A program made the position numbers and the translations under genes. A DNA stretch of 47,176 nt from Acidobacteriales bacterium 13_2_20CM_55_8. GTDB taxonomy: Bacteria; Acidobacteriota; Terriglobia; Terriglobales; Acidobacteriaceae. The notes beneath the pieces were generated by a model, which was given only the letters and a program-made list of their open reading frames with translations, made no database searches and was not told the DNA's origin. The stretch spans positions 1 through 47,176 of the forward strand of contig MNDG01000078.1 of NCBI GenBank assembly GCA_001914815.1, written 5' to 3'. Below, piece by piece: positions 5,359-45,506 of this stretch (positions are counted from its first letter, which is position 1; every line of letters starts with the position of its first letter).

Positions 5359-5455
5359 ATTTCCAATTTTCGATTTCCAATTTCCAACTGTGAAGCCGAA
5401 GACGTCACTATGTGCTTGGTTTCCAAATCGGAAATAGGCAATTGGAAATCGGAAA
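5359..5455. repeat. Heptamer array A (ATTTCCA family), inverted halves
   Basis: 5359-5386 is four 7-bp words in register (ATTTCCA, ATTTTCG, ATTTCCA, ATTTCCA). 5428-5455 is four words in the opposite orientation (TCGGAAA, TAGGCAA, TTGGAAA, TCGGAAA). The halves are about 40 bp apart and could pair as an imperfect hairpin. The array fills the gap between the OmpA terminator and the 3' end of the aspartyl protease. Confidence 0.85.
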
Positions 5456-5465
5456 TTCTTAAGCG

Positions 5466-15763: not shown

Positions 15764-15788
15764 GATGGGCTCCTGGAAGGCAGCGTTC

Positions 15789-15872
15789 GGCATTCAGCAT
15801 TAGGCACGCAGTGCTCAATGCTTAGCGCCAATTCTGAGTGCTGAATGGTGACTGCCGAGTGCTCGATTCACT
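15789..15872. repeat. Heptamer array B (AGTGCT/AGCATT family) between ribD and ribE
   Basis: Twelve 7-bp words in unbroken register. The first half reads GGCATTC, AGCATTA, GGCACGC, AGTGCTC, AATGCTT, AGCGCCA; the second ATTCTGA, GTGCTGA, ATGGTGA, CTGCCGA, GTGCTCG, ATTCACT. Words of the second half resemble reverse complements of the first. The last word overlaps the ribD stop codon (15868-15870). More degenerate than arrays D and E. Confidence 0.7.
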
Positions 15873-18008: not shown

Positions 18009-18072
18009 AGAGAAAGGCCGTGAACATTAATTATAGCGACAGGCGATGAGATTAACTGCTGCGCGGCGTTTG

Positions 18073-18114
18073 GTCTCAGGTCTCGGGTGTCAGGTCTCAG
18101 TTCTGAGATCTCAG
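18073..18114. repeat. Heptamer array C (GTCTCAG family)
   Basis: Six words in register: GTCTCAG, GTCTCGG, GTGTCAG, GTCTCAG, TTCTGAG, ATCTCAG. The fifth word is the reverse orientation, so CTCAGTTCTGAG can fold back. It lies between the ftsY promoter side and the 3' end of the HD-GYP gene. Confidence 0.78.
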
Positions 18115-18204
18115 ATATAGTGCTTGGAGAATCGAGTGCCTGCAACCCGACAGCTGCGACCTGCCCCCCGACCCGCACGGAGGAAAGACGATATCAGCAG
18201 GAAA

Positions 18205-20043: not shown

Positions 20044-20358
20044 AGTGGCCCCTGTATTCGCCGTGTTAACACACGGCCGGAGTTCGGGTATTCCTTTAAA
20101 TTTTACGTGGAATGGAATGTGGAGAAAGGAACCTTAGAGGGAATTAGTGTTACCAAAGTACTTAAAAAATCTAAGATCAGTGGCTAGAGATCAGTGGATA
20201 GTGGCCAGCAATAACCAGCCAGAAACTAAACCGGAAACTGACCACTAGCCACTAGCCACTAGCCACGAGCCACTAGCCACGAGCCACTAGCCACGAGCCA
20301 CTAGCCACGAGCCACTAGCACGAGCCACTAGCAACTGATTCCCAGAAGGAGAGATTGC
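20044..20358. other. 315-bp divergent intergenic region containing heptamer array D
   Basis: Between the HD-GYP gene (minus) and the ABM-type gene (plus). About half is the 7-bp array at 20179-20332. The remainder (20044-20178) is AT-richer and should hold the HD-GYP promoter on the minus strand, but no convincing -35/-10 pair can be fixed. No gene is seen. Confidence 0.6.
20179..20332. repeat. Heptamer array D (CACTAGC/CACGAGC), the clearest array in the window
   Basis: 20243-20332 holds 13 tandem 7-bp units: three CACTAGC, then alternating CACGAGC and CACTAGC, so a 14-bp higher-order unit; one unit (20320-20325) has lost a base. 20179-20241 continues the same 7-bp register with diverged words, the first in reverse orientation (AGTGGCT, AGAGATC, AGTGGAT, AGTGGCC), which can pair with the forward block. 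There are no spacers of CRISPR type. The array ends 12 bp before the ribosome binding site of the following gene. Confidence 0.93.
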
Positions 20359-22380: not shown

Positions 22381-22959
22381 TTACGTCAATGGGAAGGCTG
22401 CAATCTTGGTGTAGCGCGAACCTCCTCGCTGCGGTTGACTCTGGTACAGAAAGAATTCCCGTGGCCTCATCGGGCCGAAATCAGGCATCGTCAGGGCAGC
22501 CAGTTTCTCCAGGAGATGCTGGAAAACATTGGGTGCGTGACCCCTCTCTCCTCGCGCGGAGCGCCCGCCCCCACGAGCCAGCGTGAGATGTGGACTGAAA
22601 GCGTGTTCCTCTTTCGGGATACCCAGAGCAAATAAGGTTTCGTCGACGGCTTTTGCAAGACTAGCAAGTTGCGGTCCCGATGCAATGCCAATCCAGAACA
22701 CGCGAGCCGCCTTTGGTCCTGGAAAAAATCCGTAGCCGCGGAAGCTAATGTCCGTCCCCTCGGCATGAACGGATGAAAGTGCCTCCTTGATCTTTTCTAC
22801 AACTTCGGGCGACTTTTCGCCTACGAACTTGAGAGTGACGTGCAGCGACTCCGGCCGGACCCACCAAGCGTCAGGCGCAAACCCGCGCAAGCCTTCCATG
22901 AAGCGTGAAATGCGTTCACGGATAGCCTCGTCGATATCGAGAGCAACGAAAATACGCAT
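22381..22959 (-). CDS. thpR: RNA 2',3'-cyclic phosphodiesterase (2H family, LigT/ThpR)
   Basis: 192 residues from ATG 22959 (MRIFVALDIDEAIRERI); a longer start would include repeat sequence of array E. The two catalytic HxTx motifs are LHVTLKFVGE (about 45) and SPHLTLARGGG (about 130), as in 2H phosphoesterases that open cyclic phosphate at RNA ends. Length matches the family. Cytosolic. It lies in a lipid-gene cluster, downstream of cinA, from which it is separated by heptamer array E. Confidence 0.93.
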   Translation of the reverse strand: MRIFVALDIDEAIRERISRFMEGLRGFAPDAWWVRPESLHVTLKFVGEKSPEVVEKIKEALSSVHAEGTDISFRGYGFFPGPKAARVFWIGIASGPQLASLAKAVDETLFALGIPKEEHAFSPHLTLARGGGRSARGERGHAPNVFQHLLEKLAALTMPDFGPMRPREFFLYQSQPQRGGSRYTKIAAFPLT

Positions 22960-22968
22960 GGGAAGGGC

Positions 22969-23098
22969 AGCACTTAGCACTCAGCACTTAGCCATTCTGG
23001 TTTCTGGGTGCTGCTCAAGAGGACTCGGTGCCCAAGCCTCAAAAGGCCAAATGCTAAGTGCCAAGTGCTGACTGCCAAGTGCTGACTGCTGAGTGCTG
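22969..23098. repeat. Heptamer array E (AGCACTT / AGTGCTG), inverted halves
   Basis: Left half 22969-22996: AGCACTT, AGCACTC, AGCACTT, AGCCATT. Right half 23050-23098: AATGCTA, AGTGCCA, AGTGCTG, ACTGCCA, AGTGCTG, ACTGCTG, AGTGCTG, all in one register. The right words are reverse complements of the left family, with a 53-bp spacer. The array occupies almost the whole cinA-thpR gap. Same word family as array B. Confidence 0.9.
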
Positions 23099-23105
23099 TT
23101 TCCCC

Positions 23106-24350
23106 TCACATTACTTTTCGTCGAATCATGTCCAGCGCCTGCTGAGCCGCAAACCAGCGGATCCTCTTGCGGTCGCCGGGGAAATTGCGTTCCAGCACGT
23201 CGGTTCCGCGGTCCCCGGCCAATGCGTGAAACACCAGGCCCACCGGTTTGTCAACGGTGCCCCCAGTCGGTCCGGCGACGCCGGTGATGCCCACACCGAA
23301 GGTGGCACCGCAACGCTCGCGGATTCCCTCTGCCATAGCTTTGGCGACTTCCGCACTCACCGCTCCGTACTTCTTGATCAGATCAGCCGGGACTGCTGCA
23401 AACTTTGTCTTCAGTTTGTTCGAATAGACAACCGCGCCTCCGAGAAAATATCGTGAGCTTCCGCTGACCGAAGTGATGCGCTCTGCCAGAAGTCCTCCGG
23501 TACAGGATTCGGCGACGGCCAGTGTGGCATTCCGCATTTGCAAGTAGTATCCAACGATCTGTTCCAGCGAATCGCCGTTATCGGAAAAAACCAGATCGTC
23601 GAGCTCCTCTTCAATCTTTTCAACCAGTTGATCGACGCGTTCCTGAGCGGCCTCAGGCGAATGGGAGCGACACTTTAGATGTACTTGAATTTCGCCGGCT
23701 CCGGCCAGGATCGTGGTTTGCACGTCAACAAAGCGGTTGTAAATAGGCGCGATACGAGCATCGCATTGCGACTCCGCCATCATGGCGATTTTCAAAGTAC
23801 GAGTCGCAATGAATTGTTGCGGCACTTTCGCGCGCAAAAGATCCACACAGTGCTGTTCAAAAAGAGCTTTCAGCTCGTGTGGCGGGCCGGGCAGTAGGAC
23901 GATAATTTTCTCGCGCCCGTCGGAAGCGCCCGTGAGCCACTGTCCGGGCGCGGTGCCGTTGGCATTAGGCAGAACTACGGCCCCGGCAATGACTTCTGCC
24001 TGCTTGAAATTGTTGGGGGACATCTTCATTTTGCGTCCAGCGAATCGTTGCTCGAGGCTACGGACGATGTCGGGATCGCGATGAAGCTTGAGCTCCAGCG
24101 CCTCGGCTACTGCTTCCCGGGTGAGATCGTCTTCCGTTGGCCCCAGGCCGCCCATGAAAATAATGATGTCCGCACGCGATATGGCCAGCCGCGCGGCGGC
24201 GGCTAGATGCTGGCGATTGTCGCCCACAATTGTCTTGAAAATCACTTCCACACCGAGCAGGTTGAGCTTTTCGGTGAGGTAAAGGGAGTTCGTATCCTGA
24301 CGAAACGGGGTCAGCAGCTCCGAGCCAATGGCTATGATCTCGGCGTTCAC
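23106..24350 (-). CDS. cinA: CinA-family nicotinamide-nucleotide amidase / competence-damage protein
   Basis: 414 residues from GTG 24350. The N-terminal MoCF-like domain (about 1-170) has IIAIGSELLTPFRQDTNSLY and FMGGLGPTEDDLTREAVAEA and in family members hydrolyses ADP-ribose. The C-terminal PncC domain (about 250-414) has LAVAESCTGGLLAERITSVS, FLGGAVVYSNKLKTKF and GVGITGVAGPTGGTVDKPVG, which deamidates NMN. Full-length fusion, cytosolic. It is in the minus-strand cluster with pgpA, thpR, plsY and gpsA, a common acidobacterial neighbourhood as far as I recall. Confidence 0.95.
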   Translation of the reverse strand: MNAEIIAIGSELLTPFRQDTNSLYLTEKLNLLGVEVIFKTIVGDNRQHLAAAARLAISRADIIIFMGGLGPTEDDLTREAVAEALELKLHRDPDIVRSLEQRFAGRKMKMSPNNFKQAEVIAGAVVLPNANGTAPGQWLTGASDGREKIIVLLPGPPHELKALFEQHCVDLLRAKVPQQFIATRTLKIAMMAESQCDARIAPIYNRFVDVQTTILAGAGEIQVHLKCRSHSPEAAQERVDQLVEKIEEELDDLVFSDNGDSLEQIVGYYLQMRNATLAVAESCTGGLLAERITSVSGSSRYFLGGAVVYSNKLKTKFAAVPADLIKKYGAVSAEVAKAMAEGIRERCGATFGVGITGVAGPTGGTVDKPVGLVFHALAGDRGTDVLERNFPGDRKRIRWFAAQQALDMIRRKVM

Positions 24351-30867: not shown

Positions 30868-30972
30868 GTCAGGCATCGGTCCCGCGCGACGCGATCCCGC
30901 CAACCCCGCCAGGTCCGGAAGGAAGCAACGGTAACGGGCTCTTGCGTGTGCAGTGGGTCTCCGGTGCCTGGC
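30868..30972 (+). ncRNA. ffs: Signal recognition particle RNA, small bacterial (4.5S) type
   Basis: The invariant apical loop GGTCCGGAAGGAAGCA (30912-30927, GGAA tetraloop) is present and is followed by the symmetric-loop partner. The ends pair: GTCAGGCATCGG (30868-30879) with CCGGTGCCTGGC (30961-30972), all Watson-Crick or G-U. A run of five T follows (30973-30977), so the closing helix also terminates transcription. About 105 nt, no Alu domain. It binds Ffh and targets ribosomes to FtsY, whose gene is at 17052-18008. Confidence 0.96.
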
Positions 30973-38702: not shown

Positions 38703-39890
38703 ATGCCCTTGGGCCTTTATATTTCGGTGCCATTCTGTCGTACCAAGTGCAGCTACTGCAACTTCGCGTCAGATGTCTTCTCCCGCACCATTTTCCACCG
38801 CTACGTGGAACGTGTGTGTTCGGACATGGAACGTGCCAATAGTATCGCAGATCAGATGGGCGGACAGCTCGATCGGACGCTGGACTCCATATATCTGGGC
38901 GGCGGAACTCCTACGATACTCGATATAACTGAATTGGAGCGGCTATTTGTCATAATTTCGCAAAATTTCGAGCTGTTGCCAAATGCTGAAGTCACTGTGG
39001 AATGCGCCCCCGGCACACTGACACCTGCGATAGTGGAAGCGCTCCAGCGTAGCGGCGTCAATCGCGTGAGTCTGGGAGTGCAATCTTTCGTTGACCAAGA
39101 AGCCGCCGCCGTCGGGCGTTTGCACTCCCGGACGGTGGTACTGGCTGACATGGCACGTCTGCGCGCAGCTGGAATTTCCGACATCAACATTGACCTCATT
39201 GCCGGCTTACCCCGCCAAACCCCGAAGAGCTGGGAAGTTTCGATTGCTGAAACGATTGCTTCCGGCGTACCTCATGCCAGCGTCTATATGCTCGAGGTTG
39301 ACGAAGATTCCCGGCTCGGCCGCGAGTTGATTGCAGGCGGTACACGATACCACGCTCATTTCGTTCCCCAGGACGAAGTCACCGCGGATTTGTATGAGAT
39401 GGCGTGCGAGCAACTGGATACGTCTGGCGTGCGGCAATACGAAATTTCCAATTTCGCGCGCGAAAGCTACGGGTCGCGGCACAATTTAAAATATTGGACG
39501 CGCCAGCCGTACCTCGGTTTTGGAGTAGACGCGCATTCTATGCTTCCGTCGCGGGATGCCGAGAACGAAGCCGTACGATTCTCCACCCCAGACTCGCTGG
39601 AAGAATACGTCGTGGAGGGGCCTTTCAAGCGCACTCCAGTTACATCTCACGCGGCGCTCGAAGAGACGTTTTTTCTTGGGCTGAGGCTCAGTCGTGGTGT
39701 GGACTTGAAAAAAGTCGCTGCGAAATTTGGGCGGTCCGCAGTCGCCGGCTTCGCTGAAACCATCTCCGAATTCGTAGAAAGCGGATTGATGGAGCGCGAA
39801 GATTCGTGGATTCGGCTGACATCGCGCGGCAGACTGCTGTCCAATGAGGTCTTCGAAAGATTTGTTTCAGAAGAAGTGGCCCGTGGCTAG
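38703..39890 (+). CDS. hemW: HemW-type radical-SAM protein (coproporphyrinogen oxidase-like)
   Basis: 395 residues from ATG 38703 (MPLGLYISVPFCRTKCSYCN). The CxxxCxxC cluster for the 4Fe-4S/SAM centre is in the first 25 residues, as in HemW. The glycine-rich SIYLGGGTPTIL, VNRVSLGVQSFVDQEAAAVG, NIDLIAGLPRQTPKSWE and the C-terminal HemN-like domain (EETFFLGLRLSRGVDLKKV) follow. HemW is a heme chaperone rather than an oxidase. The open frame extends far upstream through the antisense of fabF, but 38703 is the correct start. The stop TAG (39888-39890) lies inside the first words of heptamer array F. Confidence 0.93.
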   Translation: MPLGLYISVPFCRTKCSYCNFASDVFSRTIFHRYVERVCSDMERANSIADQMGGQLDRTLDSIYLGGGTPTILDITELERLFVIISQNFELLPNAEVTVECAPGTLTPAIVEALQRSGVNRVSLGVQSFVDQEAAAVGRLHSRTVVLADMARLRAAGISDINIDLIAGLPRQTPKSWEVSIAETIASGVPHASVYMLEVDEDSRLGRELIAGGTRYHAHFVPQDEVTADLYEMACEQLDTSGVRQYEISNFARESYGSRHNLKYWTRQPYLGFGVDAHSMLPSRDAENEAVRFSTPDSLEEYVVEGPFKRTPVTSHAALEETFFLGLRLSRGVDLKKVAAKFGRSAVAGFAETISEFVESGLMEREDSWIRLTSRGRLLSNEVFERFVSEEVARG

Positions 39891-39957
39891 GATCAGTGGC
39901 CAGATATCAGTTATCATTAGCATCCATTGCGTCACTGGCCACTAGCCACTGACCACT
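39875..39957. repeat. Heptamer array F (AGTGGCC / AGCCACT), starts inside hemW
   Basis: AGTGGCC (39875-39881) and CGTGGCT (39882-39888) are within the last hemW codons and supply part of its TAG stop. After a 6-bp unit the register continues: AGTGGCC, AGATATC, AGTTATC, ATTAGCA, TCCATTG, CGTCACT, GGCCACT, AGCCACT, GACCACT (39895-39957). The last four words are reverse complements of the first ones. Same word family as array D. Confidence 0.82.
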
Positions 39958-39966
39958 GTTCTACGC

Positions 39967-45474: not shown

Positions 45475-45502
45475 CTCGAAACCAGAAACTCGAAACTCGA
45501 AA
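45475..45502. repeat. Heptamer array G (CTCGAAA), directly before rimI
   Basis: Four words in register: CTCGAAA, CCAGAAA, CTCGAAA, CTCGAAA. It ends 4 bp before the TTG start of rimI (45507), so it takes the place where a ribosome binding site would sit. GAAAATCT at its end is repeated inverted as AGATTTTC (45441-45448) in the end of tsaB. Confidence 0.8.
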
Positions 45503-45506
45503 ATCT

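Follow-up and report, generated by a model that had tools for sequence, protein, structure and literature searches.

The 146-bp gap between cinA and thpR in this acidobacterial genome is filled by an inverted pair of degenerate tandem heptamer arrays (hereafter E), which we interpret as probably a non-autonomous member, lacking an ORF, of a selfish hairpin family of the intervening sequence (IVS) type. The full-length element would take the form 5'-(YAGNNNN)n - IVP gene (S23, PF05635) - (NNNNCTR)n-3', in which IVP denotes a 23S rRNA intervening-sequence protein. The arms are made of degenerate tandem heptamers; their word varies by copy, and within any one copy the words of the two arms are reverse complements. 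The window, namely the whole analysed stretch of 47,176 nucleotides, is part of a 2.77 Mb metagenome-assembled genome (G000), which we compared with a genome of the same genus (G001) and with further relatives; the genomes are drafts.

The cinA-thpR hairpin and other arrays of the window

The gap (22960-23105) contains no ORF and consists almost entirely of two heptamer arms, as judged from its sequence, the Pfam matches of both neighbours and the RNA fold. It separates two genes on the minus strand, of which cinA (23106-24350; Pfam CinA, MoCF_biosynth and CinA_KH) is the upstream one in the transcript and thpR (22381-22959; Pfam LigT_PEase and 2_5_RNA_ligase2) codes for an RNA 2',3'-cyclic phosphodiesterase. 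Arm 1 (CAGCACTTAGCACTCAGCACTTAGC; 22968-22992), the 5' arm on the plus strand, comprises 3.5 heptamers of the type YAGCACT; it is followed by a loop of about 49 bp without a gene (22993-23041), which the initial annotation had given as 53 bp, and by arm 2 on the same strand (23042-23098), with about eight heptamers of the type AGTGCTR, the reverse complement of arm 1. In the direction of the transcript arm 2 begins 7 bp past the stop codon of cinA, and at the other end the element lies 8 bp from the ATG of thpR at 22959. This ATG is the conserved start of thpR; a GTG at 22980, inside arm 1, is a possible start for an ORF caller.

Repeat and sequence comparisons showed that the arms are 76-88% complementary across 23-29 nt in several registers, in agreement with the earlier description of AGCACTT-type words followed by AGTGCTG-type words as their reverse complement. 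On RNA folding the gap yielded -64 kcal/mol, as opposed to -49.5 +/- 4.0 for shuffled sequence, with none of 100 shuffles equalling it (z -3.7 to -4.0; -3.7 for the transcript strand), and when flanks were included none of 200 shuffles did so (z -4.9). The comparison with shuffled controls that had been proposed for these gaps thus bears out, for E, the long imperfect RNA stem anticipated in the initial annotation, with a predicted length of about 30 bp in the cinA-thpR transcript. An intrinsic terminator was not found at E, since on the transcript strand the arm is followed by CCCTTCCCATG and no T-run, and the AGCACTY words have no G-tracts of three or more per unit, unlike the G-quadruplex heptamers of Xanthomonas and Nostoc. 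The sole Rfam match for E, mir-1271, scored below its cut-off and was rejected as a chance match of a long hairpin.

The same layout had been ascribed to other arrays of the window. It is confirmed at 5359-5456 (inverted arms CAATTTC/GAAATCG at the end of a convergent gap; RNA z -4.9), 20174-20336 (arms TAGTGGC at 20174-20209 and CCACTAG at 20241-20336; z -6.1 on the minus strand) and 39876-39958 (inverted arms GTGGCTAG/CACTGGCCACTAGCC; RNA z -4.7), and is weaker at 15783-15862, where the degenerate inverted arms GCATTCAGCATT/GAGTGCTGAATGG (RNA z -3.3) are clearer in G001. At 18072-18116, a mainly direct GGTCTCA array with a short inverted end, the fold is no better than that of shuffled sequence (RNA z -0.8); the G001 counterpart of this array is a long inverted pair. 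A further array, TCGAAAC at 45478-45505, is direct only (RNA z 0). The initial annotation was thus right that the layout recurs, and also that slippage alone is insufficient to generate inverted halves. The window also contains a bacterial small SRP RNA at 30873-30970 (Rfam RF00169, 69.8 bits).

A genome-wide family of period-7 arrays with a strict polarity

A scan of 834 kb of G000 recovered 80 self-matching segments with a score of at least 12 at lag 7. The multiples of this period gave 48 segments (lag 14) and 30 segments (lag 21), whereas lags 5, 8, 10 and 11 gave only 0-1 each, and Markov sequence gave none. When G000 and G001 were taken together 99 of the 104 arrays proved intergenic, with 86% of the sequence called coding by a simple home-made gene caller (the scoring was likewise home-made). 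The words vary by locus, AGCACTY, TAGTGGC, CGATTTT, GGTCTCA and CAGTTCT being among them. Within 150 bp, 28 of 99 arrays have an inverted partner scoring at least 12 and just three have a direct one; overall, about a third of the arrays form inverted pairs and around two thirds are direct only. For 22 arrays the array's own partner was better than all 25 arm swaps (expectation 3.8). The word skeleton obtained by EM was nearly R/Y-palindromic and placed the AGCACTY words on the wrong strand, so that arm polarity was tested with 6-mers instead. This revealed a strict polarity: the 5' arm carries the identical word type (YAG) in all 31 period-7 inverted pairs (31:0), and the inverted degenerate arms of E likewise have the YAG type in the 5' arm.

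Inverted heptamer arms around IVP genes

In two loci from other phyla that had been included solely for their cinA, inverted heptamer arrays were found to enclose a small gene. A family search detected PF05635, the family of the IVP (S23) proteins, in 45 of 61 relatives, at four places in G000 and six in G001. An inverted match scoring at least 12 was present in the flanks of 20 of 30 IVP loci, as against one of 30 cinA loci and five of 587 ordinary genes of 80-260 aa. In a test centred on the gene, with controls displaced by 950 bp within the same loci, the IVP gene lay inside inverted arms in 24 of 28 loci of Acidobacteriota (controls 0/56) and in 15 of 24 loci of other phyla, including Bacteroidota, Verrucomicrobiota, Planctomycetota, WOR-3 and Stahlbacteria (controls 0/48); the IVP loci displayed are the best-scoring ones. 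Periods other than 7 are rare in these flanks. Named cyanobacterial plasmids showed an inverted match at seven of 14 IVP genes; the arm word is TAGGGAG in Nostoc edaphicum, for example, where the gene separates nrdB from nrdA, and CAGGGAA in Nostoc sp. C052. Some of the plasmid IVP genes are situated within operons (L353, L364, L361 and L363), between nrdB and nrdA, cas10 and cmr3, or cas6 and cas4.

The words of the window recur in the arms of such loci in its own genus. CAGCAYT, the word of E, occurs in the arms of L306 (G000) and L268 (G001), TAGTGGC, the word of the 20174-20336 array, in those of L011, and GGTCTCA on one side of the IVP gene of L319. The loop of E, at about 49 bp, has no IVP ORF, and one is present in L306, L268 and L011. 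Loss of the ORF is visible, because the IVP gene is frameshifted in one element (L123, arms TAGTTTC) and degenerate in another (L129, arms CGATTTT). L306 and L268 are an orthologous pair, and the dN/dS of 0.07 between their IVP genes indicates that the gene is under purifying selection at this element. The nearest solved structure to the IVP of Acidobacteriota is Xcc0516 (PDB: 2GSC), with a weaker match to bAvd-like proteins. The IVP has no known catalytic domain and so offers no evident means of moving an element, which counts against reading these loci as elements.

Across the 61 genomes, which are mutually related and not independent, the IVP copy number correlates with the array count, measured as matches to the pattern (YAGNNNY)4YAG (rho 0.75; 0.68 inside the family of G000 and 0.73 after genome size was accounted for). 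Among the 16 genomes lacking the IVP 14 have 0-2 pattern matches; two others (G027 and G057) have 62 and 35 matches without a detectable PF05635, and respectively contain one and four GxxExxY genes. Paired pattern sites ran forward then reverse in 11:0 cases among the matches listed. As an alternative partner of the arrays GxxExxY (PF13366) was rejected, its correlation (rho 0.53) falling to only 0.30 once the IVP was accounted for. One GxxExxY gene of G001 (L243:9422-9841; contig C44) is flanked by an inverted match scoring 29.5 made of CACAGAGGA-like units of about 9 nt, a layout resembling that of the IVP loci with a different period.

The initial annotation explained the recurring inverted layout by a further copying step; taken as an accident of replication at each site, this is not supported. 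As the polarity is 31:0, the arms flank a conserved gene and the number of arrays tracks the number of IVP copies, the pairs are better read as the ends of dispersed elements. The template switching or hairpin-primed copying that it invoked may still explain how the arms continue to match as the words change.

Copied hairpins with a shared loop

A set of ORF-less AGCACTY hairpins with a common loop core, CATTACGGGCYGGTGRTGGTTCCG..TTGGTGCAAACGATCCTCGAGGGGC (model R1), is restricted to this genus: the loop was found at 7-8 places in G000 and five in G001 and in none of 39 other relatives (exemplars are L010, L015, L016, L084 and L100 in G000, and L122, L221 and L250 in G001). These hairpins occupy different gaps and both orientations; hence, whole hairpins have been copied. 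E was considered as a member of this subfamily, and was not detected when left out of the model; its loop has no match in any other copy and no significant similarity to the shared core.

Taken as elements, the copies would enter intergenic gaps directly behind stop codons, where they would do little harm, and the arms of a given copy would then change in length by slippage of 7 nt. Their match would be maintained through correction templated by the hairpin, through selection acting on the stem, or through the two together. The IVP might act in trans on the hairpins, either as DNA or as RNA. In the case of E the stem of about 30 bp would bring the stop codon of cinA near the start of thpR, and, by analogy with the rRNA IVSs, would probably be cut by RNase III, for which it is long enough in principle.

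Divergence between relatives and competing explanations

The main rival is the opposite order of cause, with the IVP entering pre-existing hairpins. Under it hairpins arise locally: slippage produces the arrays, part of an array is then copied in reverse, whether by template switching or by quasipalindrome correction, and the IVP later settles in the ready-made loops, such sites being harmless or preferred. Comparison of G000 with G001, whose flanks are about 86% identical, lends this some weight. Arrays are present in both species in 11 of 16 array-bearing orthologous gaps, G001 retaining 11 of the 14 arrays seen in G000, and the words change jointly in both arms; for instance, the arms of one orthologous gap read CGATTGT/CAATCGT in one of the two species, as against CAATTTC/GGAAATT in its relative. 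A comparison of arm complementarity within and across the two species over 18 gaps, some of them array-free, was only weakly significant (p 0.011), because most words are common to both. Such covariation of the arms extends across genera at the cinA-thpR gap itself, where both arms are built of CAGTCGT in G010, AGCTCTT in G007, CATTGAG in G004 and CAGACTT in G031. Together with the G001 gap and two further inverted versions in named relatives (L141 and L144), these establish that the halves are inverted at related loci, as the initial annotation would have it. In G006 the gap holds a direct-only TACTCGG/CAACTCG array, and G004 has one array placed upstream of cinA. A clean pair of empty and filled sites, as expected of a MITE or transposon, was found neither in 80 orthologous gaps of G000 and G001 nor at IVP sites. 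This counts against the element reading, as do the unmatched loop of E, the direct-only majority of arrays and the array-rich G027 and G057. A stretch shared by the two genomes (L086:17231-17422 and L248:6953-7144) is 99-100% identical in surroundings of about 86-90%, which suggests recent recombination or assembly cross-talk.

A local origin would also accommodate the many direct-only arrays, and insertion of the IVP into existing hairpins predicts identical flanks. However, random inversion would not give the strict arm polarity, period 7 alone is observed, the common loop is found in different gaps, the number of arrays tracks the IVP copy number across genomes and the identical layout surrounds the IVP in unrelated phyla. 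Hence, we regard a local origin as unlikely.

Still less probable, in our estimate, is that the hairpins are host RNA stems under selection, which regulate or end transcripts by stabilising, processing or terminating mRNA, the cinA-thpR hairpin serving to tune thpR. The placement of the arrays agrees with this, as it does with the element reading: they cluster shortly past stop codons, the first array of co-directional gaps often lying 0-8 bp behind the stop, and their density per kb decreases from convergent through co-directional to divergent gaps. Inverted gaps also form stable stems (mean RNA z -5.05, n=24, vs -0.48 for array-free gaps, n=40), which are retained while the words change. Yet direct-only arrays are unfolded (mean z -0.19, n=30), E has no trailing T-run, the same elements adjoin unrelated genes, and several relatives have a hairpin-free cinA-thpR gap of merely 7-24 bp (G023, G005, G011, G014 and G016). 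That the heptamers are sites for a sequence-specific DNA- or RNA-binding regulator of the host, as their short periodic words might suggest and as was similarly proposed for the TAACTGA repeats of Beggiatoaceae, arrays of which are also known from cyanobacteria (PMC4679880), is highly improbable given that widely differing words coexist in one genome (AGCACTY, TAGTGGC, CGATTTT, GGTCTCA and CAGTTCT) and that one gap has different words in different genera.

Relationship to known systems

Heptamer arrays, their inverted pairs and rRNA IVSs are already known; for a link between the IVP and dispersed hairpins of heptamers, the open-access library that we searched yielded no paper. The closest parallel is the IVS of 23S rRNA, which has both ORF-less and ORF-bearing forms; in the latter, the loop of an inverted-repeat stem encloses an ORF that belongs to the same Pfam family. 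In Coxiella and Leptospira the S23p ORF is in the loop of a stem formed by terminal inverted repeats, and these IVSs are cut by RNase III and have been termed selfish, their origin and mobility being unclear (PMC4990558). Insertions in the rRNAs of CPR bacteria also occasionally encode the IVP (PMC11270868). E resembles the 23S rRNA IVS in that terminal inverted repeats give a long stem; unlike the latter, which sits in an rRNA helix, it sits between cinA and thpR, and its family is distinguished by many copies, intergenic positions in protein operons and arms of tandem degenerate heptamers.

Many bacteria have an excess of heptameric repeats, and Xanthomonas genomes have 70-75 convergent inverted pairs of GGGAATC arrays each, mostly intergenic and with a single or paired state that is usually conserved between species (PMC4692102). 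Those arrays consist of one G-rich word and were studied as G-quadruplexes, whereas here there are many words per genome, a strict polarity and a link to the IVP; Xanthomonas does possess an S23p, the above-mentioned Xcc0516. The short tandemly repeated repetitive (STRR) sequences of cyanobacteria are heptamers as well, and the P6b hairpin of the Nostoc tRNA-Leu intron is built of heptamers whose halves base-pair (PMC3488679). The likeness lies in the degenerate heptamers and in the pairing of the P6b halves in the transcript; the difference is that we find the IVP of cyanobacterial plasmids within such arms, a link absent from the STRR literature examined. The class 3 paired sites of Geobacter metallireducens, with five tandem MTYCTGA heptanucleotides on opposite strands, are comparable as inverted pairs of tandem heptamers with variable spacing, and were interpreted, unlike in our reading, as binding sites of a global regulator (PMC2700814).

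There is a further resemblance to the REPIN-RAYT system, in which short dispersed hairpins depend on a gene that is present in few copies and has matching ends. The present family differs in its protein and its tandem heptamer arms, and no transposase was seen.

Implications

More tentatively, we propose that IVP elements might be bacteria-wide mobile or self-amplifying hairpins with YAGNNNN ends, that the heptamers of cyanobacteria, Xanthomonas, Geobacter and others might be their orphan ends, and that the IVP might act on heptad hairpins. The meaning of heptamer repeats and the function of the four-helix S23/IVP proteins are two questions that have stood for decades. The physical link with its arm polarity, along with the genome-level correlation, supplies a concrete hypothesis that is testable in culturable cyanobacteria, Xanthomonas and Bacteroidota. 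If true, it would account for the long RNA hairpins found between genes in many operons of these bacteria.
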